DNA of 64,000 nt from Opisthorchis felineus. Lineage: Eukaryota > Platyhelminthes > Trematoda > Opisthorchiida > Opisthorchiidae. A program made the translations under genes and the position numbers. Under the pieces are notes generated by a model. The model made no database searches. It was given only the letters and a program-made list of their open reading frames with translations, and was not told the DNA's origin. The DNA lies in the NCBI GenBank assembly GCA_004794785.1, contig SJOL01008837.1, positions 45,982 through 109,981 on the forward strand, read 5' to 3'. This document shows, one piece after another, positions 16,068 through 48,850 of this stretch; position 1 is the stretch's first letter; each line of letters begins with the position of its first letter.

Positions 16068-17600
16068 TGCAGTGACACAAGCTACCATACAGGCCGTTAT
16101 CGAGATAGACGGGAAGAGGGAGCCGTGCCTAACTGATACAGGAGCAGGGTATCGCTGAGACGGGGAGGGAACGAGGCTGAACGCAAACCGTGCGCGCTAG
16201 CCGTGAGAGTAATGGGCGGATACCGACTGAAAATTGATGGATTGTCAATGCAGTGAATGCGCCTAGGCAACAGGTCCGTGCAACACGAGTTCCTGATCAG
16301 CCCAGAAATAAAGCATACAATCTTGGGAGCAGATTTTCTCAAGAGCGCAGAATCCGTGGTTGATCTCAAGCGGGGAAAACTGGTGACAAAGTATGGTGGA
16401 GTCAAGCTTGAAGGTTGTCCAAGCACTGCCGTGAGCGAACTGCAGGTCCGAAAGCTTCCGTCTTGTAATGTGCCGTCAGTACAGTCCGTGGTGGAGGAAT
16501 TCTCCGAATTGTTCACAGGCGATGAAGATCCTTTTGGCTTCTGCCCGTTTATTGAACATGAAATTCCCCTCCCGTCCGAATGCTTTCGAACTTACGGCCC
16601 CCTTCCGCTGCCACCCCATCTACGGGAGGAGGTCCATAAGCACGTTCAAGAGATGTTGAAAAATGGCATAATCGAGGAAGCGAACAGTGCGTACAACTCC
16701 TCGGTTGTGCTTGTAAAGAAGGCGAACGGGAAGTCCCGGTTTTGCGTGGATTTCCGGCGTTTGAATGAACTGACCGTAAATCGGGTTTTAGCTGTCCCTT
16801 CGGTTGCGGAGATTTTCGATTCCCTTCAGCATTCCCGATATTTCACGGTGTTCGACTTGCGTTCCGGATACTGGCAACTATCTGTCAAGGAGGAGGACCA
16901 GGAGAAAACGGCGTTCACGGTTTGTAACACCCAAAATCAATTTAGAAGGATGCCGTTTGGTTTGTCGGGGGCTCCACTCACATTCCGGCCCTTGATGCTT
17001 CGTCTAACGAAGGGTCTACAGAATGTTGCCGTGTACTGGGATGATATCGTTGTGTACAGCAATTCGGAACCAGAGCACGCAGTTCATTTGAAGGCCGTAT
17101 TGAAGCGCATCCGGGAGGCGGGCCTGCGGATAAATGAAGCCGAGACACAGCTCGCTCGGTGTTCGGTGACACTGCTGGGGCATAAATCGGGTCACGGAAA
17201 GGTTAGCCCACTGCCAGAAAAACTGGCGAAGATCCAGGACCGTACTGTTCCCAATTCAAAGCGGTCCCTACGACAGCTTCTTGGACGAGCAGCATACTAC
17301 AGCCGATTTGTCAAGGATTTCAACACGATTGCTGCTCCGCTGTACGACTTGCTTGGGAAAAATAGGAAACTCGAATGGACCAGGGAAGCACATGAGACTT
17401 CCGAACATGTCAAAGCGCGGATGCTGGATCAGCAACTGACCCTCAAGCTGCTCAGGGTAGGGGAGATGTTTACTATTGCAACGGACGCTAGTGAACGCGG
17501 TGTTGGCGCAGTCCTTAAGAAGAGGACTGGAGTCATCGAATATGCCAGTCGTGTCCTGACTAACGCTGAGCAGAAGTACTCAACTATAGAGAATGTTTAG
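16068..17600 (+). pseudogene. Gypsy pol: protease, reverse transcriptase, start of RNase H
   Basis: The protease active-site motif LTDTGAG lies at 16129-16149 in frame 1 and is soon followed by a stop. Frame 0 then continues with an in-frame TGA at 16254 and, from 16257, a long open frame of 447 codons. This begins with the protease C-terminal motif ILGADFL. It then carries the reverse transcriptase blocks VDFRRLN, FDLRSGYWQL, MPFGLSGAP and the catalytic YWDD (around 17033-17046), and ends in RNase H with the TDAS motif (around 17481). The reverse transcriptase catalytic residues look intact. Breaks are a frameshift in the protease, the TGA, and a frame loss near 17595 within RNase H, where the expected acidic YSTIE continuation shifts frame. 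Confidence 0.88.
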
Positions 17601-20487: not shown

Positions 20488-20625
20488 ATATTGTGAGAAT
20501 TTTTCAATGGACATTTCGTCCGGTCTTTGAAGCCGTTTTAGGCTGAAAAGCCGAGAAGCGCTGTACAGTTGTTTCATCCCCAGTGGGAATCATCAGTAGT
20601 ACGCTTCTCGCCCGAGAAGCCAATC
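20488..20625 (+). repeat. SINE-like dispersed repeat, plus orientation
   Basis: This stretch (GTGAGAATTTTTCAATGGAC..., GCTGAAAAGCCGAGAAGCGC) is shared in diverged form with 34936-35070, 44586-44700, 54261-54390 and, reversed, 54450-54560 and the right arm at 48130-48260. It is an interspersed repeat of roughly 150-250 bp. Confidence 0.5.
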
Positions 20626-31765: not shown

Positions 31766-31912
31766 TCACACAGTTGCTTCGTTCAGTTTGCTACTTTGAC
31801 GAGAAAGAAGCATCTTTAGATGTTGCCCACTCTGCTGAATTGCATCCACCGCTTCCTTGTGCGTCATGGTATGTGTTGGAACTCCATTAATCTCCACTAT
31901 TTCATCCCCAAT
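31766..31912 (-). CDS. MAGI: MAGI-type scaffold, last exon (second half of PDZ5 and C-terminus)
   Basis: Entered through TCTTCTCCGTTTCAG, this exon starts on a codon boundary, directly continuing the exon ending at 35539. It encodes IGDEIVEINGVPTHTMTHKE, the conserved second half of a PDZ fold, followed by helix B (AVDAIQQSG), the last strand (KMLLSRQ) and a short tail ending SKLNEATV and a TGA stop (31766-31768). The wording closely follows MAGI PDZ5 (IGDEI-EING-x-T-x-x-M-x-H-x-x-A). The protein ends about 10 residues after the domain, shorter than the tails of vertebrate MAGI proteins; an unused donor-like GTAGCA lies just before the end, so a longer isoform is possible. No clear poly(A) signal follows closely. 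Confidence 0.85.
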   Translation of the reverse strand: MGDEIVEINGVPTHTMTHKEAVDAIQQSGQHLKMLLSRQSSKLNEATV

Positions 31913-34900
31913 CTGAAACGGAGAAGAAGTTCTAAAATTTTCATGACAAACGTTTAGGGATCGGACTGTCTGTGTAAGATCCGAGAAGCTGACGCATAAG
32001 TGATAAGCTTTATTATTTGAGGGCAAGCAGCATGTAAATTAATGTAGTTAGTAGCAGTCAAGTAAGCTAGTCAAAAAAAGAAATTTGCACCGTAATCGAA
32101 GTGCTCTCCAGACTATTGGTTAAGGTGGGTTTTTTAAGCACTTTCTTCTTTCCGTACATTGTGAATTCCCTAGGCAAACGGGATAACAAATCGATTGTAA
32201 GCTGGTGTTAAATTCTAGAGATGTCTTACATTCTAAAGAATTTTGTAATGTGGACAAAAGAATATTTGTGGAAAAATAGTATATATGTACATATATATTC
32301 ACGTAAAGGGAGTAGAAATCCGGATGTCCTCGAGAGCAATCCGGGTGGACAACGTACAAGTAAAAAGAAAACTTTGAGTTCACGAAGTTTACCATTTTCT
32401 TTTACGTGCAACCATTTAGTAAAACTCCCAGGTTCATTAGATTTTGCGTGCTCGGTATTGCTGTGAAATTCCCCTATTGACTCACGGAGAAATGTCTATT
32501 TGCGAACGTTTTGCTCGCTACTGACGAATGTCCCGCTTCAATAACACACTACTTTTCCAGCTAATTTGCTGTCGTTGATGCACACAGATGAAATTCGGCT
32601 GGGATTCTCTTTTGTTTCATTTTTTGGCCAAATTTGCTTCAAAAAGGCGTTTTGGTTGCAAGGATAATAAAGATATAGACTTCCGTTGACATCAACTTAG
32701 TTTGCAAACAAACGCTAGGATGTTTGATGACCTTCCACATGCTGTGCTCAGAATAACCTTATTGCCTTCTGTGAATAGCCAACATTATTTTGAAACAATC
32801 GTACTATTCCGATACATTCGTGGTGCAGGCCACCATCGGTTGATGAAAATTCCAACTATTGAGTTGTCTCGGCTTGTATGTGCTGGCACTACCAGTAGAC
32901 CGATGTAATGCGAACTTTGGATTTGGGATTTGAAGCAAGACAACATTCTCCTGCTTTTATATCTGAGTAACCGAACTGTGTGCAGAAGTGCACACAATTT
33001 AGCTTTCAAAACGTGCGGCGCACTTTTGTCCACTGTTAGTCACAAGTAACCACAGTAACGCTGATAAATGTGTCCTATTTCTAACATGACGTGCTATTAA
33101 CCTTATTTGACAATTGAGACTGTGGGACAAAGTTTGACTGGCTTATATTTGGTGGATATGAGCTTTCATTCTAGTGTTCAGTGATTAAGTGTCCACAGTT
33201 AGTTGCAAGCTATACTCTCGTTATAGTGTCATTGGTTACGATGGTACCGCAGTTGGTAAACAGCTATCGAAGTTTTCCGTGTATGTACCACCGTACTGAC
33301 AGCTAATGGTTTGTGCTACCGGGTTGTTTGTTCATTGCTGCCCCATAACTTTTTAATGCAAGGCAATACGTCATACTGTGTTGTATTGCGAGTTAACGCA
33401 AAATTTTATCATGCCGCTTTTATTGTGCCTTTTTGTAGTTGACTCAACTTGTTTTCCCCAGCATTACATGTGTACACATACAAATTTCCTCCCGTAATAT
33501 TATCTACTTTCCAGTGTGCTAAGCCTACATTGGCGCTACCGGAGACACTCTGAGACCATCGGCCTACGAAACAAGGTGAATGCTGATCAGGACTGCGTGT
33601 CTTGAGTGCATCTCGCACGAGTGCCCTATGGATCTCGAGTGTTCGTATGTTCTTCTCTGAAGTGACAGTTAGGGGCTACCCATTGAGAGTGCTGTTGGCT
33701 TTAGAACTGCCTCCCCCGCTTCACCCTTCGGTCATGTTCCCTTGCCTTTACGCCGAGCGCAAGGCGTTCACGCAGAAGTGTGTGGTTCAGCAATGAGCGT
33801 GTGTTAGGTTATCGACTATGCATAATGGTCCACCGACGTCGTTTGATTTAACAAGCCAAAATGTATGCAGGCACATGATGGCTGTACATGTCGCCTCTCA
33901 TTAAATTATGCAAACAGTTTTTATGGCGTACCTCCTTTTTATCCACACCCCCACCCTGATATCCGTCACATGTCACCCACATCTGGTCCATTCTGATACA
34001 CAAATTCAGTGTGTTAACCTGAGGATAGGTACGTCAGCTACAGCGCGTGCACTAAGCTGGAAATTCGTTCGCTACCACTTAATCACCCCAACTGAAGCTC
34101 CAGTGGAGGGGTGTATTAGGGATGATTCGACGACTCCGGATAAGAATCTCAGGGAACACATCGATACAAGCTGGATTTGCAGCGCGGTGTGGTAACAGGA
34201 TTAATCGGAAGGGACTACGTATAAAACATGCCTATGGTTACAGTGATTTTCTTGTAACCGCGATCAATCCTATGCAAGGACAATGATTCTCGTAAGTGTA
34301 CTCATCAGTTTTCATTAACTTAAACAGTCCTAAGGCGGAAAAATTAAAAAATAGTGATATCAGATTTTATTGGTTGTACAAGTTTATCATTTGTAGCGCT
34401 TTAGAACGTAGTTTTTGAATAAGTGATGATTGTCACTTAGATAAGGAGGGGTATTCAAACAGAACATTAGGTTGAAGGGAATATGCACTTCCACGGGCTA
34501 TGGGAATGGTGGAACGGCTAGTGGGGGCTCAGTTTCATCAACCTTATTACCGACATCTTGTAAGGAACTACCTTTAAGCTATTTACCGAAATCAAGCTTC
34601 GTCAAATCCGCAGCCACAACCACAGATTTTACCGAAGATTTACACTCCAACGATCCTTAGGATTAAGTAGGAGTTCGTGCGCCTACCCGGCCTTATTAAT
34701 GAATCTCACTCGAGCTGTTTGACAACAGTGTCACGACCACAAACAGTTCCAGAATCTTATATAATTTGGCGAATTATTAACGCTCGAGGTTGGAACTGGT
34801 ACGCAAACTCCCTAGTTTGTTGTCGTTACGCAGCGGTTTCTATGATAAAAGGTAGATTAGGATCTTAAAAGCGGTTATTCCACAGAACGTATGAAGGCTC

Positions 34901-35538
34901 ACACTCCATAAAGATGAAAATTCCTGTTGGTATTATGAGGGGATTTGGAAATTTTCAATAGAGGTTTCGTCCCGTCATTCAGGCTAACCTATACTGAAAA
35001 GCCGAGGAGCACTGTAGAACTCTTTCATCCGTGTTGGGAATCATCGACAGTGCCCATCTCACAAACCTCCATGGAATCTAGAACTCTAATTCGCACCAAG
35101 TCACCGACCATCTTAAAAATGACCACGACAAAGACCCATGCTACTGGGTTTGTCTCTTTAATCCATTTGCAGATTATTTAACCACGTTTTTGAAATCAAG
35201 ACGCTGGACCAGAAAGAAAAAACGCATTTTGACATGACTTTGCAAAAGGTCTCCAGAAATGCTGGGTTATTTTGTGAATACAGCGTCTTGTTTGCCATGA
35301 TTGGAATACGTTACTACCGTGATGCTATTTCCGGGTTTGTTACGAAAAGCCCAGTTCCAAATACAACACTCTGTGGTTTCTTAGTCACCATAGACTAGCT
35401 ACCTATTATGCATTGATGTCTTCAGACATTTTCCCAAATGCTGCACTATGCTTGTCATGTGTGATCTGCCGACGTGAGTAATATTCGCAAACAGGAAGCA
35501 GTCTCATAAAATATAAATAGAGGATAACAGTTATCTAC
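31913..35538 (-). other. MAGI intron between the two PDZ5 exons
   Basis: Runs from donor GTAGAT (35538) to acceptor TTTCAG (31913). The outer end of the left inverted-repeat arm begins inside it at 34381. No other gene recognised. Confidence 0.7.
34936..35125 (+). repeat. SINE-like repeat inside the left arm
   Basis: Shows the family words GAGGGGATTTGGAAATTTTC, TTTCGTCCCGT and CTGAAAAGCCGAGGAGCACT. Its mirror copy lies at 48071-48260 in the right arm, so it was present before the duplication. Confidence 0.5.
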
Positions 35539-35736
35539 CTGGATACGACCATCTATAGATGTTGGACCACCATCAGCAATGCGGAAAACAAAGAGCGGGA
35601 TGTGTCCAAAGTCAATTCCACCGCGAATGGAAAATCCAAAACCTTCAGCCCCTTTTGTCAAGTTGACACAGTAAAGCAAAGGTATTTGGCCAACGGGAAG
35701 CCGCACAGCTGTTCCATTTGCTTTTGAGTTCGTATT
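35539..35736 (-). CDS. MAGI: MAGI-type scaffold, first half of PDZ5
   Basis: A 198-bp phase 0-0 exon between acceptor GAATTCTTCAG and donor CAG|GTAGAT. It encodes a linker, then the start of a PDZ domain: GAEGFGFSIRGGIDFGHIP contains the peptide-binding GFGF loop, followed by FVFRIADGGPTSIDGRIQ. Spliced to 31912 it completes the fold (GRIQ-IGDEIVEING). The combination closely parallels MAGI PDZ5 (KGFGFSLRGGREY ... LAEDGPA). PDZ5 of MAGI proteins binds C-terminal tails of junction and receptor proteins at cell contacts. The exon lies wholly inside the left inverted-repeat arm and has an intact antisense twin at 47460-47657. Confidence 0.88.
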
Positions 35737-37380
35737 CTGAAGAATTCATTTAAAACAGGAAATCTAAAGATGAGGACTCCCAAAAAACAGTACTAGGTGT
35801 TTTTTAAGTGAATGTGTTTAGCAAGAATTACTGTGGCGTAAGATAATGGTAATTCAACAACAGCAGCAAAAGAATCACCCTATTATGTTACTGATGATAA
35901 CAAGCAATAAGCAGCGAACAGAATGAAATACAATAACAAATGAAAGGTTTGATAATACACCATGAAGTATCGCATAACATTCGTCATAACTCATAAGTTT
36001 GAGAGTACAAAGCGGAGGCTCATCAAGAAGAATGTATCCCTTGGTTTTTTGTGGACTTTAAGTTTCTTCATCTTGGATGGAATTATTAGCTTGAAGTGTA
36101 CTACTTTAAGTTTTTGACAAAGACTGAACTCACACAAAACAAGATAGTGACTGCAGTTTCTGCGAATAAACGCAGGAAGCTCAGAGAATCTCTCTGCGTC
36201 ATTCCAGAACACTGTTCCAAACATGGAAGACCTGATCAGTGGAAAGGTAATTCTATGGCCAGGTTACTTCAGGGTCGTGGATTTTAAATATTGACGTTTT
36301 CAAAACGGCTAGGTACCACTTATTTATTTGCATTTAAGTTGCAAATGATAAACAAGTCAGAAAGGCCAAGGCGAGATTTGGTTTGTTTGCATGAAAATCC
36401 CGAACGACTAAACGTTATTAGACCGGGACCTACAAAATTCTTAAGCAAGTCTAGTTGTCCGGACGACTTGATAGGAGTTTCATGGGCTTGGAATGTTTCT
36501 CGGATAAACTTCAAAAAAGACTACGGTTGAATACCTAGCATGGCGAACAACTGCTTTCGATTGGTAAATACGGTTACGGATGCAATATGCCGTCAACATA
36601 TTTGTCCATTAGATGGTTAAGTGTACGGCAAACAAGTATTTAAGTCACCGCTGAGGTCAATTAAGATCAGTGGTTTGTCGTTCAGAGTAGGGCCACAGCT
36701 TTCGCGTAACACAAAAATGGTTGGTGTAGTTGGATGCTGGTCACTCCTAATGTTTTAAATAACCTTAAAGCAATTTGGTTGTCTCCGGTACACTACGCTG
36801 AATGAATAGGTCGGTTGGATCCGGCGATTTTTATCGATCAGGATAGGTGCATTCGCGTTCGTCATGGGTTTCGATCTCCCGGTCCCAGTGCGTGACAGGA
36901 CCTGCTCAGACATTCTTTACGGTAGGTGCCGAATAATCCAACCGACGTAGCTTGCGGAGCATCCGGAAACTTTTGAATATTTCGTTAGGAATGGTTGCTG
37001 ACCGACACCTTATTCTTGGTGCTTGCCCCGATCACTGCACAAATGGGCACTTAACAGAGCCGTATTGGACATTCTTCAGAGTACTCTCCAATTTTTTCTT
37101 GATTGTCTAAAAAGTGATACCACATGCGAACGTTTGCTTAATGCAAATGGGCAATTTCTGTTATGGTAGGCTTCCGCCTCCTGCTGTATGTTGCTATCTC
37201 AAGTATAGGTATTCAACAGGTATCTCAATTCAACTGGTATTCACTTTCGATCGGGGCCGTCGAGATATATGCCAGTTCTTCAGATAGTATCTTAACTTTG
37301 AAAACCTTGCGAGCCGTAATTACATTTCATTGAAATTCGTTTGTATTTTCTGTCTAAAAACGCTATGAAAGAGCGAGTAC

Positions 37381-37604
37381 TGGCAAGCCCAGGTTAAGTT
37401 TCAACGTACACGTCAATGAAGCATTTCGTCTGTCCTCTAAACCATTGCAGTCCAAAGAAGCTGAATGTGTTGTTGACCAATTGCTCCGCGGTGGAATGCC
37501 GGATATACCGAATAAATGGTGATCAGGATCATCTGGACTGCTGTGTATCAACTGCGGCGTCAGATATCTGTTAGTCATTGACTCATCAATGACTTGCAGC
37601 AGAC
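37381..37604 (-). CDS. MAGI: MAGI-type scaffold, linker exon between PDZ4 and PDZ5
   Basis: Needed to restore phase between the exon ending at 41233 (one base left over) and the exon at 35736 (codon boundary). A 224-bp piece from acceptor TGTGTAG (37605) to donor CCA|GTACTC does this exactly: two bases, then 74 codons. It encodes a hydrophilic linker (MTNRYLTPQLIHSSPDDPDH ... ISGIPPRSNWSTTHSAS). There is no domain, as expected between PDZ4 and PDZ5. The acceptor is short of pyrimidines and a second donor (ACGT|GTACGT) exists, so exact ends are less sure than the frame. It lies in the left arm; its antisense twin is at 45592-45815 with one Ala-to-Thr change. Confidence 0.62.
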
Positions 37605-38124
37605 CTACACACTTTCGCTCGCTGATCTAACTCTATCGGTTTACATCAACGCCAAGAGCTTGTGAGCAGCATCGCGTTCGCTTCCTCGCGATTTGCACGT
37701 GGCTTCTCATTTCGCGCTGGTGTCTAGTGCTCTAACCACGTTTTACCGATAAATCAGATTTGGATGCCATCCTTATGTATATGTGATCCCCGGCGTCACC
37801 TAAGACCTAACAACTTAGGCACAACCCATCTGCCGAGAGGTCATCCGCGGCACATTTTATTGCTGATATCCGCAATAGTTCGGTGGATATTCATCCTCCA
37901 TACGTATTATACGGTGTGCTGACCGTTATGTACATTTTTCTATCCTACTTCTGACTTTGGCGGTTAATTATATTTTGCGACCTGCAAACAATTTGTATCC
38001 ACGTTTTCGCCAACACAAATGCCTCAGAATTCAATTTTTAATCCCTTGTTATAGAAGAATTAAATTTAAATTCAAAAGTATGCATAAGTGGGCTCTTCTC
38101 TCTATGTTCAAAGTGCGTTTGTGA

Positions 38125-41100
38125 CGGATTTTTCAAATACGGCACATCACATTTATGTGACTACTAATCAGGTTGTTTTATCTCTTCCAAGTTATTTGTT
38201 CTTGATTGGGGTCTGAAATCCTGGAAACCGGCGAATAGATTTTGTCCTTTTGAACAGAGCGGGTGGAGTTGGCCAGTAGATTCGCCTTATATTATCTGCT
38301 CCCCGATGTGCAGTTGGAATAGAAAATGAGTTATTTTTTACAGGCGTTTGTCTAATTAGCCTGAGTTGTCTTTTCATATGCAGATTTGTTGTTACTTATC
38401 CTCTGATTTAAGTAGACAGGACATTGGTCAACTGTCCATCCAAGTTTGTATCTGACCGTTTGAGCTGGAAACACTTGAGGAGGTCCAAGCTTGGTCTGAA
38501 TTCTAGTACATAAACTTTACCAAATTGATGTCTTCCAGTTGGTTTTGAAATCTTAAGGAAACAGCTCTACTGATCTAAGCGATTCATACGAACAATATCA
38601 ATGTACATGGTAATAACACGCATACCAAATTTGACGTTTTGTATGAGTTCATCCTTGCGTGTTCAACCTGATCGTCTAGTGTTTTTGAACAGGAGACCCT
38701 TCCAAGGAAATCTCTTGGCAAGTCCATATTATCTGTTGGTAAAACAGATCAAGGTAAATTGGTAATAAGAAGAGACGACTATCTTCACTCACTGTGTGGG
38801 TGGTTAGGATTTCTTGATATTCAGCTTAAATTAATGTAGTCCAAATTTTGATACAGTCAAGGTTGTGCCTAGTTTATTATGACGATTTGGCCAATACATA
38901 TATGTGCACTGAATTTATTTTGTTTGTTGCCCAAGTATCCAGAAAGTTAAATACCATGGTCACAACTACGGGGATTTTGCTCATAAGTAGGACTCATTAG
39001 GTTCGTGTGCCCTCATAGTGAAGGACATAACTGCTTATCCTGAACTACTAAATGATAGTACGCAATGTCGCGCTGCGAAATGTGGATAGAAAGCCATCCT
39101 CACACGAATGTTCGGGTAAAGTGCAGTTTCAATATAGCAAAAATGATTGCTCAAATTTTGGCGAACCGCTTCTTGGCCAAACACTCCACGTAGGCTGCCG
39201 AGGAAAAGGAATTTGTACGCAAGCGCCGTGTGCCAATGCGAAGTGGCGTTTGATAATAACAAGTAGTAAACTGGAAAATATATTCAGCCTAGGTGGGTCC
39301 GGAAAGTGCCTCGAGGTATTCCACCTGTGGAACTCACAATCATGCAGAGGGAGCTCTAGTCCACCGAAATCTACATGAAGCACTGAATTAGGTCAGCTGA
39401 ATCATGCAGCTGACAGAAGCAAGAAGAGAAGAAGGTGACTTTGAGCGATGCTGAACGATGGTGCATGGAACATCCAGGCGATGCCGGCTCTCATCGATTT
39501 TTATGAGGAAACAAGTAACAAGAGAAATCAGAATGGAGGGTTTTTATAATTTGTGAGATTGTTTCTTTGGTGGACAGACATAAAAAGCTTGGAACGGAAG
39601 GGCGTACCGCGACCAGTTCCCATATAAGGACATTCCACAACCTACGTTGTTCGTTGTTCCGTGGACGATGGATGACGAGGAGAATTGTGTCTTAATAACG
39701 ATGTCATTATTTCTATCGCGTATATCAAATGCCATGTCTTAATGATGGGTAATAACCGAATATTAATACGGATGCCGATTAGAGTAGCCTCACTTGCGTT
39801 GCGCATAATTTTGAAAGACAGCATGTGACTTTAGAAGCTCCGTGAACGTTGTCCTACAGCTAATCAAAAGTTGAGTGAACAGCTGCTCCGAAAGACAGGT
39901 GTTAAAAATGTGAATATTGTATTTTTAACCGGACAAATCAAGAAAACCTTGAAATTAATGATAAGTTATAGACTACATCCGCTAGTCAACAAAGCACATA
40001 TCCTGGGCTTCCCTGTTTACATTAGGGCGAAATGAGATGTTGAAGCTAGAATGAGATCCGCTTGGTCAAGAATAGTACTGATAATGTAAACGGCCCCATG
40101 TATTTGCTTTGCTGCTGTTCTGGGTATTCTTCCATAAATAAGTGATAAATATATGTACGGCAATGTCCGCTTAGCTACGAGATTTTATGAAGGAAAATCA
40201 TGTCGCAGGAAACGTGATAACGTGATAACGTGATGATGATAACGTGCGTGTGCTAAAAACGTGTACATTGTTTAAATTTTATTCTGCTAGTCTCAGGAAA
40301 TGATTACATCTTCTTAGAAATTTACTAACCCATTTTTATGAAGACCTGAAAAAACGATTTCCACGTTATTTACTCCTAATGATGATGTTATTATATGAAT
40401 AATTTTGTTTATATATGTTCACTCACTGTTGCTGACACAGAATTGTTCATGTGCTGATGCAGCTTTTCCGGTTAGTCCAAATGGGCCTTGAATATAGCTT
40501 CTTTGTGAGCCCTCGAATAGCGCAGGCGTTAATTTCAATTCTCTTTGGCCTGATTATGCTTACTAGCTAGTAAAAATTACTAGGTGTATTGTGTGACTGA
40601 ATTTTAGATCCCGAGAGGAATTTTGTCGTTTATGACGTCTGATGGGAACAAAATATGGCACTGGCAAAAGAAATTCGACCAAAACATAGCAACCCGAAGT
40701 AAATATTGATGGTGACAACAATAATACTACCGTAAGAGATAACAGTCTATTATCCCATGCACACTGGTTGCCCCTCTGTGGCTTAGGTTTATAGTAAATC
40801 TATAGGATATTCACACCTAATCTTGAAGCCTTCTTAAAAATTGTAACTTACGTTTCCCTCAGCTTCTGGTAATCAGAAGGGACCTGCTCTATCTTCGTGA
40901 TGCAATATTTCCCCGTATTCACGTATCGTTTTTACGCTTCTACTGAGGGACCCAGCTTGCATTAAATCAGGTTGGACTTCAGCCTATTTGTTACTGCCTT
41001 AGACGTGGTTCGTTAATTTTTCCGTATTGGACTCTGCACACAAACTTGCCGGCTCGAAGCTCTGACTGAAATATTAGCTAAGAACTTTCGAGCTATTTAT

Positions 41101-41232
41101 TAGGTAACTAATTCAAGTGGCATGTGATGGGGCTCCCAGCCGTCCCATTGATATTATAAGAAACACTTGGTAATTTGTACGCATTTGTTTACGAAACCCT
41201 GGAAAAATGCGGTCACAATTTAGTTGACTTAC
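38125..41232 (-). other. MAGI intron, loop side of the inverted duplication
   Basis: Between the left arm and the exon at 41233. Contains a short tandem AACGTGAT run near 40211-40240 and open frames without support (39035-39383, 38192-38377). No gene recognised. Confidence 0.5.
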
Positions 41233-41433
41233 TATCCAGCTTGATATTTTTATTATTCGTTGGACTGGGAGGCCTCTGTACCGTAAGCACCAACTTCCGC
41301 TGGTTTTGTCTTATTATGTGAACAATCTCACTATGATGCATCCCAGCCAGACGCTCACCGTTGATAGCCAGAATGCGGTAGCCAACCTTGAGGATTCCAG
41401 ATCGATCTGCCGGGCTATTGGGGATGATTCGAC
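41233..41433 (-). CDS. MAGI: MAGI-type scaffold, second part of PDZ4
   Basis: Entered through GAATGCTTTTCAG and left through ATA|GTAAGT, this 201-bp exon brings two bases that complete a Gly codon with the exon ending at 43648. It encodes RIIPNSPADRSGILKVGYRI, then LAINGERLAGMHHSEIVHII and the last strand LVLTVQRP. This is nearly the consensus of MAGI PDZ4 ([26 protein letters not shown]). The conserved acidic residue of the KVGD turn is Tyr here (KVGY), a small departure. The open frame extends upstream to 41911, but the phase and homology show that exon coding starts at 41433. The exon lies in the loop between the inverted arms. Confidence 0.9.
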
Positions 41434-43647
41434 CTGAAAAGCATTCGTAAGTGACAACATGAACGTATTCCATCTCACCCAAAATTACGTTTGAAAGCGT
41501 GTCAAACTGAGCAGACCCAGAAACGAGGCTGTTTCTCATTTTAAACCGGACACAGTTTTTTGATGTGCTGTACTTTGCTCCCACTATAGCCATAGAAAAG
41601 CTTGTAAACCTGGTTGCCCTCAGTTGTGACAATATTTTGAAGTTGAAACAACTTTCACCCTGTAAGTTGCATTCGCAACAATAATAACTCACATGTTTAA
41701 AAGGTCCCCTGGAAGTCCCGTGCTTATTTTCAAGGATGCCATCCTCCTGGAATCCAGTGGTATTCAAAGATAGTAAGGCACATTGTTGTGGTTCGCTTCT
41801 GTTTACGGCATGCCACTGACTACCCTCAAATTTCAAGAAAATCAAAGCTAAACTTTCCGACATTGTTTTGCTGTCTTTGTATCGTGAAATGATTGACCAA
41901 TCCGTTTTCAATGCTAAGTCAAATTAGGTATGCCGATCAAATTGTTACGCGATAAAATTAAGTGATCTGCCTTACCACCATGCAGACTTATGTCGCACAG
42001 TTATCCCGTATGAGTAATTAACCCAACCTGTATGAAAAGCACATTAGTCAGCTGACCTCTTTCAGTAAAAATAATGCGCCTACAGGGAAATCATTAGGTT
42101 TTTTACCGATAATAGATTAATGAAAGCCAGTCACATTTTTTGATGTCGCTTCAATCAAATTTTATCTTCGTAACGAATCGGTACAGCCAATTTTGTAAGA
42201 AAATGTTTGATAACCATTTGCCAATTCCTTTCGGAGTTGGCCAATAGTAAACCGTAAGTTTTCTACAGACATCACAGTTGATCTGTGGTATGAAGTTCGG
42301 ATCTCCCAACCATCGCTTTAGGCGCCGTATATCTATACGATAACTTGGTAAAGCAAGTAAAATGGTGATGGCCATGCATAAGGCACAATTCGTCGAACAG
42401 GATATAACGTTTGCCTAACTATGAAAGAATGCGAGATAATTGCAAATAAAGTTGGGTTCCTTGATGCATTTGCGGATTCTGTTTCCATGCTGCACTCACC
42501 CTCCCCTATTAACATTCGTGTTACACGGGCTTTGGCATGTGAAACGTTTATCTGTGCTCTCATGTCAAACGTTTATATGAGATACAATCCTTCAAGAATT
42601 CAAATGTTACTGTTTAGCCAGTGCAGTTGTTCTGTCTGGTCAAAAAGGACTTCCCAACGTTCATAGCATAGTTGCTGTTCTGGTTAGAACTAGCGGTGCA
42701 GCGACATTCAAAACCAAAATTTCGGCAAGAGTCGCGTCTGACATGTAACACAACTAACCCCTAAACGGAGAGCCGTTATCAGTTACACAGCAACGTCTTC
42801 GAACCCAAAGATTTTTACTTTACCGAAGAATCGGATCACCAGGCTAATGAGGTGTTTTTGACGCATCCGTCTGAAACTGGGGCGTGACTTCAGTTATTCT
42901 GTCAGCTCACGCTGGGGTGGAAAATGGTCGAAAAACGTCGGTTTAGCCATCCGACATTGTTATATAAAGCATGTAAAATCTACAGTCATCATCAAAAAGA
43001 TAATTGCGTTTTTTTGGGTGAGAGGTGCATTTAAATCAATAACTCAGTGACCGACCGAACAAGGTGGCGGATTCAAAAGTAAACATTTAAATATAAAAAC
43101 CATGTTGGTCCGAAACTGGCATTAGTTCTTCAGGAGAAGTTGAAAGGCAGCCAAACCGTCGGAATTTCGACAAGTCCTACTTTAATTCGGCATTACCAAC
43201 AATAATTTCATTTATACCCCCCTATTCCCACCTGCCTGAAAACAGGAAATCCAATAAATTTTGAACCTGTATTAAAAGCTTATGGTTGTGTGTGTGGGGA
43301 ACGTAACTATGGTTCTGAGTACTCACGGAAGCACGAAATTGCCTCGAAAACATGAGATATTGCTACAATGACTCGCAGTAGTTTCGTGCTAAGAAAGGAA
43401 TGTATCCTCGATGTTTGAAAGATTTTTGTATATCTGCACGTTTTTAATACAGGAGGACGGTAAAGAAGATTTATAAATCTGAGAACGGGTTTTTAAATAA
43501 GACCGCTTTAAACAAACGCGATGGTATCACTGTGGTACTGTTAATCTGTACTTTCTGTAAGAAAGCCGCTTAGCATTTGCTTCTGTCAATTAACTCTTAC
43601 CTTGAGGCGGAGCTTTTATTGAGAATCGTGTATTCTGCAAAACGTAC
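41434..43647 (-). other. MAGI intron within PDZ4
   Basis: Bounded by GTACGT (43647) and TTTTCAG (41434). No other feature recognised; open frames at 42151-42666 have no support. Confidence 0.6.
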
Positions 43648-43740
43648 CGATTTCACTGGCTTTGTAACTGTTCAGCGGACTGACAATTACGAAACCAAAT
43701 CCTTCGTTTTCTTTTCGTTCAAGCACCACATCAAAATTAG
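43648..43740 (-). CDS. MAGI: MAGI-type scaffold, first part of PDZ4 (93-bp exon)
   Basis: A short exon that has to be read from the sequence because it is too small for an ORF list. The acceptor is CATTTCTTTTTTCAG and the donor ATCG|GTACGT. It encodes NFDVVLERKENEGFGFVIVS, matching the start of MAGI PDZ4 (DVEIRRGENEGFGFVIVSS in vertebrates), including the GFGF loop, then PLNSYKASEI. The two leading bases join the G left by the exon ending at 53317 to make Ala; the trailing G joins the next exon to make Gly, giving SEIGRIIPNSPADR. Both phase joins and the homology agree, so this exon is secure. A (TA)n tract sits about 60 bp upstream of its acceptor. Confidence 0.9.
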
Positions 43741-43798
43741 CTGAAAAAAGAAATGTGCAGCTTTATGTCCTTAACCCTGCACATGTGATTCTGCATTA

Positions 43799-43801
<3 letters not shown>

Positions 43802-43851
<50 letters not shown>
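43802..43851. repeat. (TA)n microsatellite, about 25 units
   Basis: Uninterrupted TA dinucleotides, 50 bp, starting 62 bp upstream (in transcript terms) of the acceptor of the 93-bp PDZ4 exon. Confidence 0.97.
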
Positions 43852-43852
<1 letters not shown>

Positions 43853-44585
43853 CGTAACACCTCTTAAACCATTTGCCCGAATGTGTTAGTGCGCTGTAGG
43901 AAATAGAAAAAGGAGACTTAAAATTTCCTGGTAGTGTAAAAGTCCAGCAGTAGCATCACCCAGTTTATTCCTGCGTCACATCCGCTCAAGCCATTAAAGA
44001 CAGAAAAGCACCGTCAACTAGGCCTCAGCTGGTAAGTCCAGCTGCCTCCACCAAAGTCCAACCTGGCTGGTGGCTAATTCAGGTTGTTCTTCCAAGTTCT
44101 TCTTTAACCCAGACGACTGTTCGTCCAGCCCAGCTCTTATAATTCAAACGGTGGATTGCAAACAATGGTAGTTGGTGCCCACTTCTTGAGACGTGACCTA
44201 GCCATCAAAGATTGTAATCAGAAAACATGGTGTCGAAATTCATTTTTATTAAGGCAACGGAGGAGAGGGTGACATATTTAAATGCTGCTTGCTCAATAGT
44301 CCCATGGTCTCGGCGCCTGGGTCGAGTTGGATGTGTGGATGTTTTGGATGTGTTGTAGAGTAGCAGAGAAATCGGACTTCCTTAGGGAACACCACAGGCA
44401 ATCGGGAGAGGCGATGAATTAAGCTCGCAGGCTTGGAGGTGACCCAGTGTACTGTAATAAACTGTCTAAATTGTCAGCTGACCTCGGCCTCAGACCGTTT
44501 TAGAGAAGTCGGTCTGTTGTGATTTATAAACACATCAAATCAATAGTAAATCAGACACTTAGAATAACCGTAACTCATGGTGGTG

Positions 44586-44775
44586 TGAAGACATTTGGTA
44601 ATTTTTAAATTGCAACTTTGATACGTAAGTGAAACCAGTCTATGCTGAAAAGGCAAGAAGTACTGTACAGCCGTTTCCTCCTGACTGGCAATTATGACAC
44701 GGAACCCAAGGTAGTACCGAACCCATGACCTCTTAACTGGCAGTTTTAATTTACCAGTCGGCCAGGAAGGGCTGA
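44586..44775 (+). repeat. SINE-like repeat with tRNA-like tail
   Basis: Carries the family core (CTATGCTGAAAAGGCAAGAA, CTGTACAGCCGTTTCC) and the tail GAACCCATGACCTCTTAACT, whose reverse complement has a B-box-like TGGGTTC. Same family as 20488-20780. More family-like text (GAAGTTTCGTCCCGTGATTT) follows at 44981-45000. Confidence 0.45.
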
Positions 44776-45591
44776 TCAACATCGCGATCAGCTCGCATTT
44801 AGAGAGGACATGGCGCCGCCTGTCCTCTAATCACGGACACCTCATGGCGTGTTCCTGTATTGAATGGCTTCTCGAGTGACAACCTCTTAGATGGAAGTTT
44901 CACTCAGCTCGTGAAATTATTTGTCCTCTGAGCTACTTATAGAGTGATGGTAGTATGTTGATTTTCGGTAAAATCCAATTGAAGTTTCGTCCCGTGATTT
45001 TCGGTCGATCAGGCCCGATCAAGCTACGCTCCAATAGCTGTATACATGGAGAACCTGATGACTGAGTACTATCACAAACGCACTTTGAACATAGAGAGAA
45101 GAGCCTACTTATGCATACTTTTGAATTTAAATTTAATTCTTCTATAACAAGGGATTAAAAATTGAATTCTGAGGCATTTGTGTTGGCGAAAACGTGGATA
45201 CAAATTGTTTGCAGGTCGCAAAATATAATTAACCGCCAAAGTCAGAAGTAGGATAGAAAAATGTACATAACGGTCAGCACACCGTATAATACGTATGGAG
45301 GATGAATATCCACCGAACTATTGCGGATATCAGCAATAAAATGTGCCGCGGATGACCTCTCGGCAGATGGGTTGTGCCTAAGTTGTTAGGTCTTAGGTGA
45401 CGCCGGGGATCACATATACATAAGGATGGCATCCAAATCTGATTTATCGGTAAAACGTGGTTAGAGCACTAGACACCAGCGCGAAATGAGAAGCCACGTG
45501 CAAATCGCGAGGAAGCGAACGCGATGCTGCTCACAAGCTCTTGGCGTTGATGTAAACCGATAGAGTTAGATCAGCGAGCGAAAGTGTGTAG

Positions 45592-45815
45592 GTCTGCTGC
45601 AAGTCATTGATGAGTCAATGACTAACAGATATCTGACGCCGCAGTTGATACACAGCAGTCCAGATGATCCTGATCACCATTTATTCGGTATATCCGGCAT
45701 TCCACCGCGGAGCAATTGGTCAACAACACATTCAGCTTCTTTGGACTGCAATGGTTTAGAGGACAGACGAAATACTTCATTGACGTGTACGTTGAAACTT
45801 AACCTGGGCTTGCCA
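45592..45815 (+). pseudogene. Antisense duplicate of the MAGI linker exon
   Basis: Mirror of 37381-37604. The frame is intact; the one residue change seen is Ala to Thr (RRNAS to RRNTS). Lying on the strand opposite to the host gene and inside its intron, it cannot be spliced into the MAGI mRNA in sense. Confidence 0.7.
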
Positions 45816-47459
45816 GTACTCGCTCTTTCATAGCGTTTTTAGACAGAAAATACAAACGAATTTCAATGAAATGTAATTACGGCTTGCAAGGTTTTCAAAG
45901 TTAAGATACTATCTGAAGAACTGGCATATATCTCGACGGCCCCGATCGAAAGTGAATACCAGTTGAATTGAGATACCTGTTGAATACCTATACTTGAGAT
46001 AGCAACATACAGCAGGAGGCGGAAGCCTACCATAACAGAAATTGCCCATTTGCATTAAGCAAACGTTCGCATGTGGTATCACTTTTTAGACAATCAAGAA
46101 AAAATTGGAGAGTACTCTGAAGAATGTCCAATACGGCTCTGTTAAGTGCCCATTTGTGCAGTGATCGGGGCAAGCATCAAGAATAAGGTGTCGGTCAGCA
46201 ACCATTCCTAACGAAATATTCAAAAGTTTCCGGATGCTCCGCAAGCTACGTCGGTTGGATTATTCGGCACCTACCGTAAAGAATGTCTGAGCAGGTCCTG
46301 TCACGCACTGGGACCGGGAGATCGAAACCCATGACGAACGCGAATGCACCTATCCTGATCGATAAAAATCGCCGGATCCAACCGACCTATTCATTCAGCG
46401 TAGTGTACCGGAGACAACCAAATTGCTTTAAGGTTATTTAAAACATTAGGAGTGACCAGCATCCAACTACACCAACCATTTTTGTGTTACGCGAAAGCTG
46501 TGGCCCTACTCTGAACGACAAACCACTGATCTTAATTGACCTCAGTGGTGACTTAAATACTTGTTTGCCGTACACTTAACCATCTAATGGACAAATATGT
46601 TGACGGCATATTGCATCCGTAACCGTATTTACCAATCGAAAGCAGTTGTTCGCCATGCTAGGTATTCAACCGTAGTCTTTTTTGAAGTTTATCCGAGAAA
46701 CATTCCAAGCCCATGAAACTCCTATCAAGTCGTCCGGACAACTAGACTTGCTTAAGAATTTTGTAGGTCCCGGTCTAATAACGTTTAGTCGTTCGGGATT
46801 TTCATGCAAACAAACCAAATCTCGCCTTGGCCTTTCTGACTTGTTTATCATTTGCAACTTAAATGCAAATAAATAAGTGGTACCTAGCCGTTTTGAAAAC
46901 GTCAATATTTAAAATCCACGACCCTGAAGTAACCTGGCCATAGAATTACCTTTCCACTGATCAGGTTTTCCATGTTTGGAACAGTGTTCTGGAATGACGC
47001 AGAGAGATTCTCTGAGCTTCCTGCGTTTATTCGCAGAAACTGCAGTCACTATCTTGTTTTGTGTGAGTTCAGTCTTTGTCAAAAACTTAAAGTAGTACAC
47101 TTCAAGCTAATAATTCCATCCAAGATGAAGAAACTTAAAGTCCACAAAAAACCAAGGGATACATTCTTCTTGATGAGCCTCCGCTTTGTACTCTCAAACT
47201 TATGAGTTATGACGAATGTTATGCGATACTTCATGGTGTATTATCAAACCTTTCATTTGTTATTGTATTTCATTCTGTTCGCTGCTTATTGCTTGTTATC
47301 ATCAGTAACATAATAGGGTGATTCTTTTGCTGCTGTTGTTGAATTACCATTATCTTACGCCACAGTAATTCTTGCTAAACACATTCACTTAAAAAACACC
47401 TAGTACTGTTTTTTGGGAGTCCTCATCTTTAGATTTCCTGTTTTAAATGAATTCTTCAG

Positions 47460-47657
47460 AATACGAACTCAAAAGCAAATGGAACAGCTGTGCGGCTTCC
47501 CGTTGGCCAAATACCTTTGCTTTACTGTGTCAACTTGACAAAAGGGGCTGAAGGTTTTGGATTTTCCATTCGCGGTGGAATTGACTTTGGACACATCCCG
47601 CTCTTTGTTTTCCGCATTGCTGATGGTGGTCCAACATCTATAGATGGTCGTATCCAG
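47460..47657 (+). pseudogene. Antisense duplicate of the first PDZ5 exon
   Basis: Mirror of 35539-35736, with acceptor, donor (CAG|GTAGAT) and frame unchanged, including GFGFSIRGG. It has no downstream partner on the plus strand that would complete the PDZ fold within the window, so it is a duplicated exon without a gene. Its transcript-strand complement would be antisense to the working exon. Confidence 0.85.
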
Positions 47658-48367
47658 GTAGATAACTGTTATCCTCTATTTATATTTTATGAGACTGCTT
47701 CCTGTTTGCGAATATTACTCACGTCGGCAGATCACACATGACAAGCATAGTGCAGCATTTGGGAAAATGTCTGAAGACATCAATGCATAATAGGTAGCTA
47801 GTCTATGGTGACTAAGAAACCACAGAGTGTTGTATTTGGAACTGGGCTTTTCGTAACAAACCCGGAAATAGCATCACGGTAGTAACGTATTCCAATCATG
47901 GCAAACAAGACGCTGTATTCACAAAATAACCCAGCATTTCTGGAGACCTTTTGCAAAGTCATGTCAAAATGCGTTTTTTCTTTCTGGTCCAGCGTCTTGA
48001 TTTCAAAAACGTGGTTAAATAATCTGCAAATGGATTAAAGAGACAAACCCAGTAGCATGGGTCTTTGTCGTGGTCATTTTTAAGATGGTCGGTGACTTGG
48101 TGCGAATTAGAGTTCTAGATTCCATGGAGGTTTGTGAGATGGGCACTGTCGATGATTCCCAACACGGATGAAAGAGTTCTACAGTGCTCCTCGGCTTTTC
48201 AGTATAGGTTAGCCTGAATGACGGGACGAAACCTCTATTGAAAATTTCCAAATCCCCTCATAATACCAACAGGAATTTTCATCTTTATGGAGTGTGAGCC
48301 TTCATACGTTCTGTGGAATAACCGCTTTTAAGATCCTAATCTACCTTTTATCATAGAAACCGCTGCG

Positions 48368-48850
48368 TAACGACAACAAACTAGGGAGTTTGCGTACCAG
48401 TTCCAACCTCGAGCGTTAATAATTCGCCAAATTATATAAGATTCTTGAACTGTTTGTGGTCGTGACACTGTTGTCAAACAGCTCGAGTGAGATTCATTAA
48501 TAAGGCCGGGTAGGCGCACGAACTCCTACTTAATCTTAAGGATCGTTGGAGTGTAAATCTTCGGTAAAATCTGTGGTTGTGGCTGCGGATTTGACGAAGC
48601 TTGATTTCGGTAAATAGCTTAAAGGTAGTTCCTTACAAGATGTCGGTAATAAGGTTGATGAAACTGAGCCCCCACTAGCCGTTCCACCATTCCCATAGCC
48701 CGTGGAAGTGCATATTCCCTTCAACCTAATGTTCTGTTTGAATACCCCTCCTTATCTAAGTGACAATCATCACTTATTCAAAAACTACGTTCTAAAGCGC
48801 TACAAATGATAAACTGAGACAACCGATGAAATAACGACAACAAACTAGGG
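48368..48850 (+). repeat. 19-bp direct repeat spanning the outer junction of the right arm
   Basis: TAACGACAACAAACTAGGG occurs at 48368-48386 inside the arm and again at 48832-48850, 16 bp outside the arm end. Upstream bases (AACCG, TG) also match loosely. The same word, reversed, is at 34810-34828 in the left arm. Confidence 0.9.

Follow-up and report, generated by a model that had tools for sequence, protein, structure and literature searches.

Locus and Host Gene

The window, the whole 64-kb stretch of Opisthorchis felineus DNA analyzed here, forms part of contig C1388 (716,938 bases) in an assembly of 630,098,494 bases and 1,848 contigs. Its principal feature is a pair of near-identical arms that lie in opposite orientation within a minus-strand gene containing PDZ exons (Table 1). 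The left arm carries a coding exon for the first half of a PDZ domain, and only in this arm does the exon lie in the sense of the gene. The donor of this exon (CAG/GTAGAT) makes a phase-0 join to the acceptor at 31912; the acceptor at the upstream edge, 35736, failed a crude splice filter. When the joined domain (left-arm exon plus the 31.9-kb exon) was compared with PDB chains, the best single-PDZ chains were those of MAGI-2 (1wfv) and MAGI-1 (2r4h); five multi-PDZ DLG4 chains outscore both by summing domains. For the PDZ exon of the spacer, scribble, GRIP1, and APBA1 ranked above MAGI-2. The host is therefore likely, though not proven, to be a gene for a MAGI-like scaffold protein.

Table 1. 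Coordinates of the repeat arms, the junction, and the neighboring exons within the window
Feature	Position	Strand	Description
Left arm	34381..38124	+	Probable donor; its PDZ exon is in sense with the gene
Spacer	38125..45071		6,947 bases; occurs once in the window
Right arm	45072..48815	-	Probable inverted copy; sits in an upstream intron, antisense; scar found at this arm alone
Degenerate junction stretch	48816..48832	-	12 of 17 bases match the outer flank of the left arm, 34364-34380
Templated scar	48832..48850	+	19 bases; exact copy of 48368-48386; reverse complement of 34810-34828
Left-arm coding exon, MAGI-type PDZ domain, first half	about 35539..35736	-	198 bases; PDZ match; upstream edge set by eye
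Exon with the second half of that PDZ domain	31805..31912	-	Strong acceptor at 31912
Antisense copy of the left-arm PDZ exon, in the right arm	47460..47657	+	No mismatch; coordinates equal 83196 minus those of the left-arm exon
PDZ exon in the spacer	about 41233..41433	-	PDZ match; edges from the crude splice filter

An earlier note on this DNA had called the host a MAGI gene, with two exons in the left arm, intact antisense copies of them in the right arm, and two further exons in the spacer. A minus-strand PDZ gene is present, and the MAGI-2 and MAGI-1 matches of its joined domain agree in part with that description. A regular expression for WW domains, run over 260 kb of the contig, gave no hit in the gene. 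As for the exons, support was found for one in the left arm and one in the spacer. The left-arm exon has its PDZ match, donor, and phase-0 join, its antisense copy is free of mismatches, and one PDZ exon in the spacer is supported. No second left-arm exon was found; here a single frame, 37366-37626, was examined, and it has neither a Pfam match nor an upstream acceptor passing the crude filter, which is a weak test. One protein search with an 82-residue piece returned no candidate homologue, an Rfam scan of the window gave no match at gathering scores, and phage records gave no match, which is uninformative for an animal gene. Elsewhere in the window, an open frame at 16257-17597 contains retroelement domains for reverse transcriptase and RNase H.

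Structure of the Inverted Repeat

Self-comparison of the window aligned the two arms over 3,744 core bases with 8 substitutions and no indels (99.79% identity). With a 17-base extension at the outer side, the alignment pairs 34364-38124 with 45072-48832, is ungapped throughout, and keeps a constant coordinate sum of 83196. The inner edge of the core (38124/45072) is abrupt. This is the sole large inverted repeat that the self-comparison found in the window, and the remaining self-matches listed there reach at most 219 bases and at most 84.2% identity, so the arm pair is beyond chance. The self-alignment confirms the arms, their coordinates with the sum of 83196, the gap-free pairing, and the 6.9-kb spacer as they had first been described. 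The suggestion that such a spacer is unusual was not borne out, as the spacers at 21 sequenced human inverted-duplication junctions in one reported set range from 766 to 70,466 bp with a median of 3,428 bp (PMC3907307).

When the arm was searched against the 630-Mb assembly, and 40 of 1,424 candidates were scored, two full matches were found and both were the window arms themselves, with no third or allelic copy among the scored candidates. Together with a core divergence of 0.21%, this supports the earlier proposal of a recent duplication. The other 43 of the 45 arm matches listed in that search all fall inside query positions 548-724, which belong to a dispersed repeat. This repeat is about 180 bases long and 75-83% alike across contigs; within the window it occurs at 34904-35093, 48103-48292, 44572-44741, and 20488-20610, and it is present at other loci. 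Its tail bears what we take to be a resemblance to a tRNA B box. A copy of the repeat bridging the insertion was considered as a means of showing the empty site; the repeat fragment at 44927-44997 ends before the insertion, and this candidate was set aside.

A Templated Scar at One Junction

The outer edge of the right arm does not simply end. It passes first into a degenerate stretch of 17 bases and then into a 19-base scar that is an exact copy of sequence from within the arm, the source lying 464 bases inside. The left arm has no comparable scar, and the other three arm edges have exact matches of at most 14 bases in the window. For 60 randomly drawn 100-base pieces of the window, matches reached at most 15 bases. 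When 2,795 random contig positions were examined, 20 had an exact match of at least 19 bases within 4 kb, and all 20 lie in or beside a microsatellite, repeats known from the self-comparisons, or a second inverted pair that is described below. A search for the 19-mer allowing up to 3 mismatches found no fourth occurrence in 328 kb of sequence.

The degenerate stretch is set apart from the core by its mismatches, 5 in 17 bases against 8 in 3,744, a strong local excess (Fisher test, 1e-9). It is also more like the outer flank of the left arm than random sequence would be, with 12 or more matches in 17 occurring at random with a frequency of 1.2e-4. These 17 bases may perhaps have been present at the target site beforehand. 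No microhomology is visible at the inner junction (38124/45072) beyond the arm match itself. No target-site duplication adjoins the edges; the flanks of the right arm share two 6-mers and those of the left arm one, all at unequal offsets.

Other Inverted Pairs

A second inverted pair lies on the same contig outside the window, at contig positions 235128-240639 and about 249762-255273, with a spacer of about 9 kb and 11 mismatches over 5,512 ungapped bases (99.8%). One end of this pair is a mismatch-dense taper (9 differences in 52 bases, against 8 in the 5,472 before it) that runs into a TTA microsatellite. A search with 4,854 bases of its arm returned two full matches, both in the pair, among 40 scored of 5,559 candidates; parts of the arm are members of a dispersed family. 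The contig, over 260 kb, contains two near-identical inverted pairs of at least 1 kb and no direct pair.

A wider survey used exon probes and was judged by eye. The kinase probe gave 136 matches (132 of 583 candidates scored) and the PDZ probe 60 (114 of 114 scored), and no inverted pair of equal score and range was seen among these 196 matches. This lack speaks against a general fold-back process, within a survey that is insensitive because it left the PDZ exon in the left arm of the window pair unlisted. Two PDZ matches on another contig (C1662:503196-503339 and 517916-518059) have equal score and profile range and lie in direct orientation 14.7 kb apart. From match coordinates alone, C1276:244506-245933 and 250284-251711 form a candidate third inverted pair, with equal scores, opposite orientation, and about 6 kb between them.

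One-Sided Differences between Arms

All eight core differences of the window pair have G or C in the left arm and A or T in the right (two-sided binomial, 0.008), and the right arm has T on the plus strand at 7 of these 8 sites. The second pair, before its degenerate end, behaves similarly: 5 of 5 strong/weak differences run in one direction, and one arm has T on the plus strand at 7 of 8 sites. Its spectrum there is odd, with transitions at 2 of the 8 sites. Such one-sidedness is not predicted by ordinary decay, because decay should affect both arms. With two such pairs on one contig, the divergence of the arms may stem from errors made during copying and not from subsequent decay. Consensus error would also account for the one-sided differences, and the T at 7 of 8 sites and the odd spectrum could hint at it.

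Origin of the Right Arm

We consider it likely that the left arm was recently copied, in inverted orientation, to give the right arm, through error-prone fold-back or template-switch repair of a break in the upstream intron. The right arm is probably the copy and the left arm the donor; the sole grounds for this assignment are that the exon is in sense in the left arm and that the scar is one-sided. In the proposed sequence of events, the upstream intron would break, or a fork would stall there, near 45071. The 3′ end so freed would start synthesis on the opposite strand, at a distance of about 7 kb, either by folding back or by switching template at 38124. A polymerase would then copy about 3.7 kb of the left arm, as far as 34381. 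There it would stumble and write the 17-base imperfect stretch resembling the left flank, return to the arm's interior for a further 19 bases, and leave a new end that would be joined to the right side of the break. Three features of the locus fit fold-back or template switching: the length of the main copied segment, the short templated one taken from nearby, and the imperfect junction. In human cells, templated insertions are reported to start at imperfect microhomology (PMC8421209), and in yeast, mutation around breaks is described as raised by microhomology repair (PMC5413072).

The main rival, which we hold to be unlikely, is that the right arm is false, either a chimera of multiple displacement amplification (MDA) or a piece of the other haplotype laid backwards by the assembler. 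The geometry of the window pair, with inverted segments a few kilobases apart, would suit a chimera. Of 475 chimeras from MDA of a single E. coli cell, 85% were inverted, and the analysis reported there includes a class of inverted segments less than 10 kb apart, much like the window pair (PMC1855051). The presence of a second near-identical inverted pair within 260 kb that holds no direct ones can be read in the same way, as can the odd spectrum of that pair and the preponderance of T that its one arm shares with the right arm of the window pair. A lone chimera, however, makes one junction, whereas the right arm returns to other sequence on both sides, and the 19-base templated scar would require an additional switch. 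These two returns and the scar make a simple chimera less likely. The backward haplotype, which the earlier note had named as the chief alternative, is weakened by the templated scar at one junction and by the absence of an allelic copy among the 40 of 1,424 assembly candidates scored. Raw long-read error is expected to look different from indel-free substitutions, and the 16 core differences over the two pairs include no indel.

Gene conversion and transposition are less likely still than an amplification chimera. An older inverted duplication could have been kept uniform by conversion, for which the Y-chromosome palindromes are the natural comparison, and near-identity over 3.7 kb with one degenerate edge is what we might anticipate if conversion tracts leave arm ends of that kind. 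This reading is nevertheless highly improbable, as the core stays uniform until it stops abruptly on the inner side, the degenerate edge covers only 17 bases before a templated scar, and all 8 core differences run in one direction. Treating the arms as two copies of a mobile element, or as long terminal inverted repeats, finds a foothold in the 160-180 bases or so of dispersed repeat inside each arm and is scarcely credible otherwise: the arm has just two full matches (40 of 1,424 candidates scored) and no target-site duplication adjoining its edges, a host exon lies inside it, and no transposase is evident in spacer frames of at least 85 residues, where the Pfam scan covered the PDZ frame alone.

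Relation to Known Systems and Significance

If the right arm arose by fold-back or template-switch repair, the copying process is of a known kind, and what is new is this case, with its scar retained and a second inverted pair on the contig. The human fold-back inverted duplications described in PMC3907307 are alike in having an inverted copy, a disomic, unduplicated spacer of kilobase size, and insertions at some junctions. They differ in being large and in including duplications beside terminal deletions, translocations, and rings, whereas the duplication here is 3.7 kb and interstitial. The insertions attributed to microhomology-mediated break-induced replication in PMC8421209 share the short templated stretch from nearby and the imperfect homology at the junction; those were recorded in followed cells, while here the main insert is 3.7 kb and is known from a genome assembly. 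Newborn gene duplicates in C. elegans are often adjacent and inverted, as PMC2728529 states in citing earlier work, and they resemble the present case in being young, close by, inverted, and partial. The difference from the C. elegans duplicates is that the copy here lies inside the same gene, intronic and antisense. Literature searches found no papers on inverted duplication with trematode and genome assembly, and none on circular RNA with inverted repeats in flatworms.

The inverted copy, being antisense and intronic, is most likely without function, and no sign of function was found for it. A broader proposal is that local inverted copies arise again and again in this genome through error-prone folding back, which would mutate one arm, and that the hairpin formed here could yield circular or small RNAs. 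We regard this as quite unlikely. If it were true, the MAGI-like pre-mRNA would gain a near-perfect 3.7-kb hairpin around a PDZ exon, and that hairpin could give rise to circular RNA or to small RNAs targeting the gene's own exon. If the duplication is real, it would be a natural case, still young, whose donor, copy, spacer, and repair scar are all readable, and it would offer a clean test of whether a long intronic hairpin changes the splicing of its own gene.
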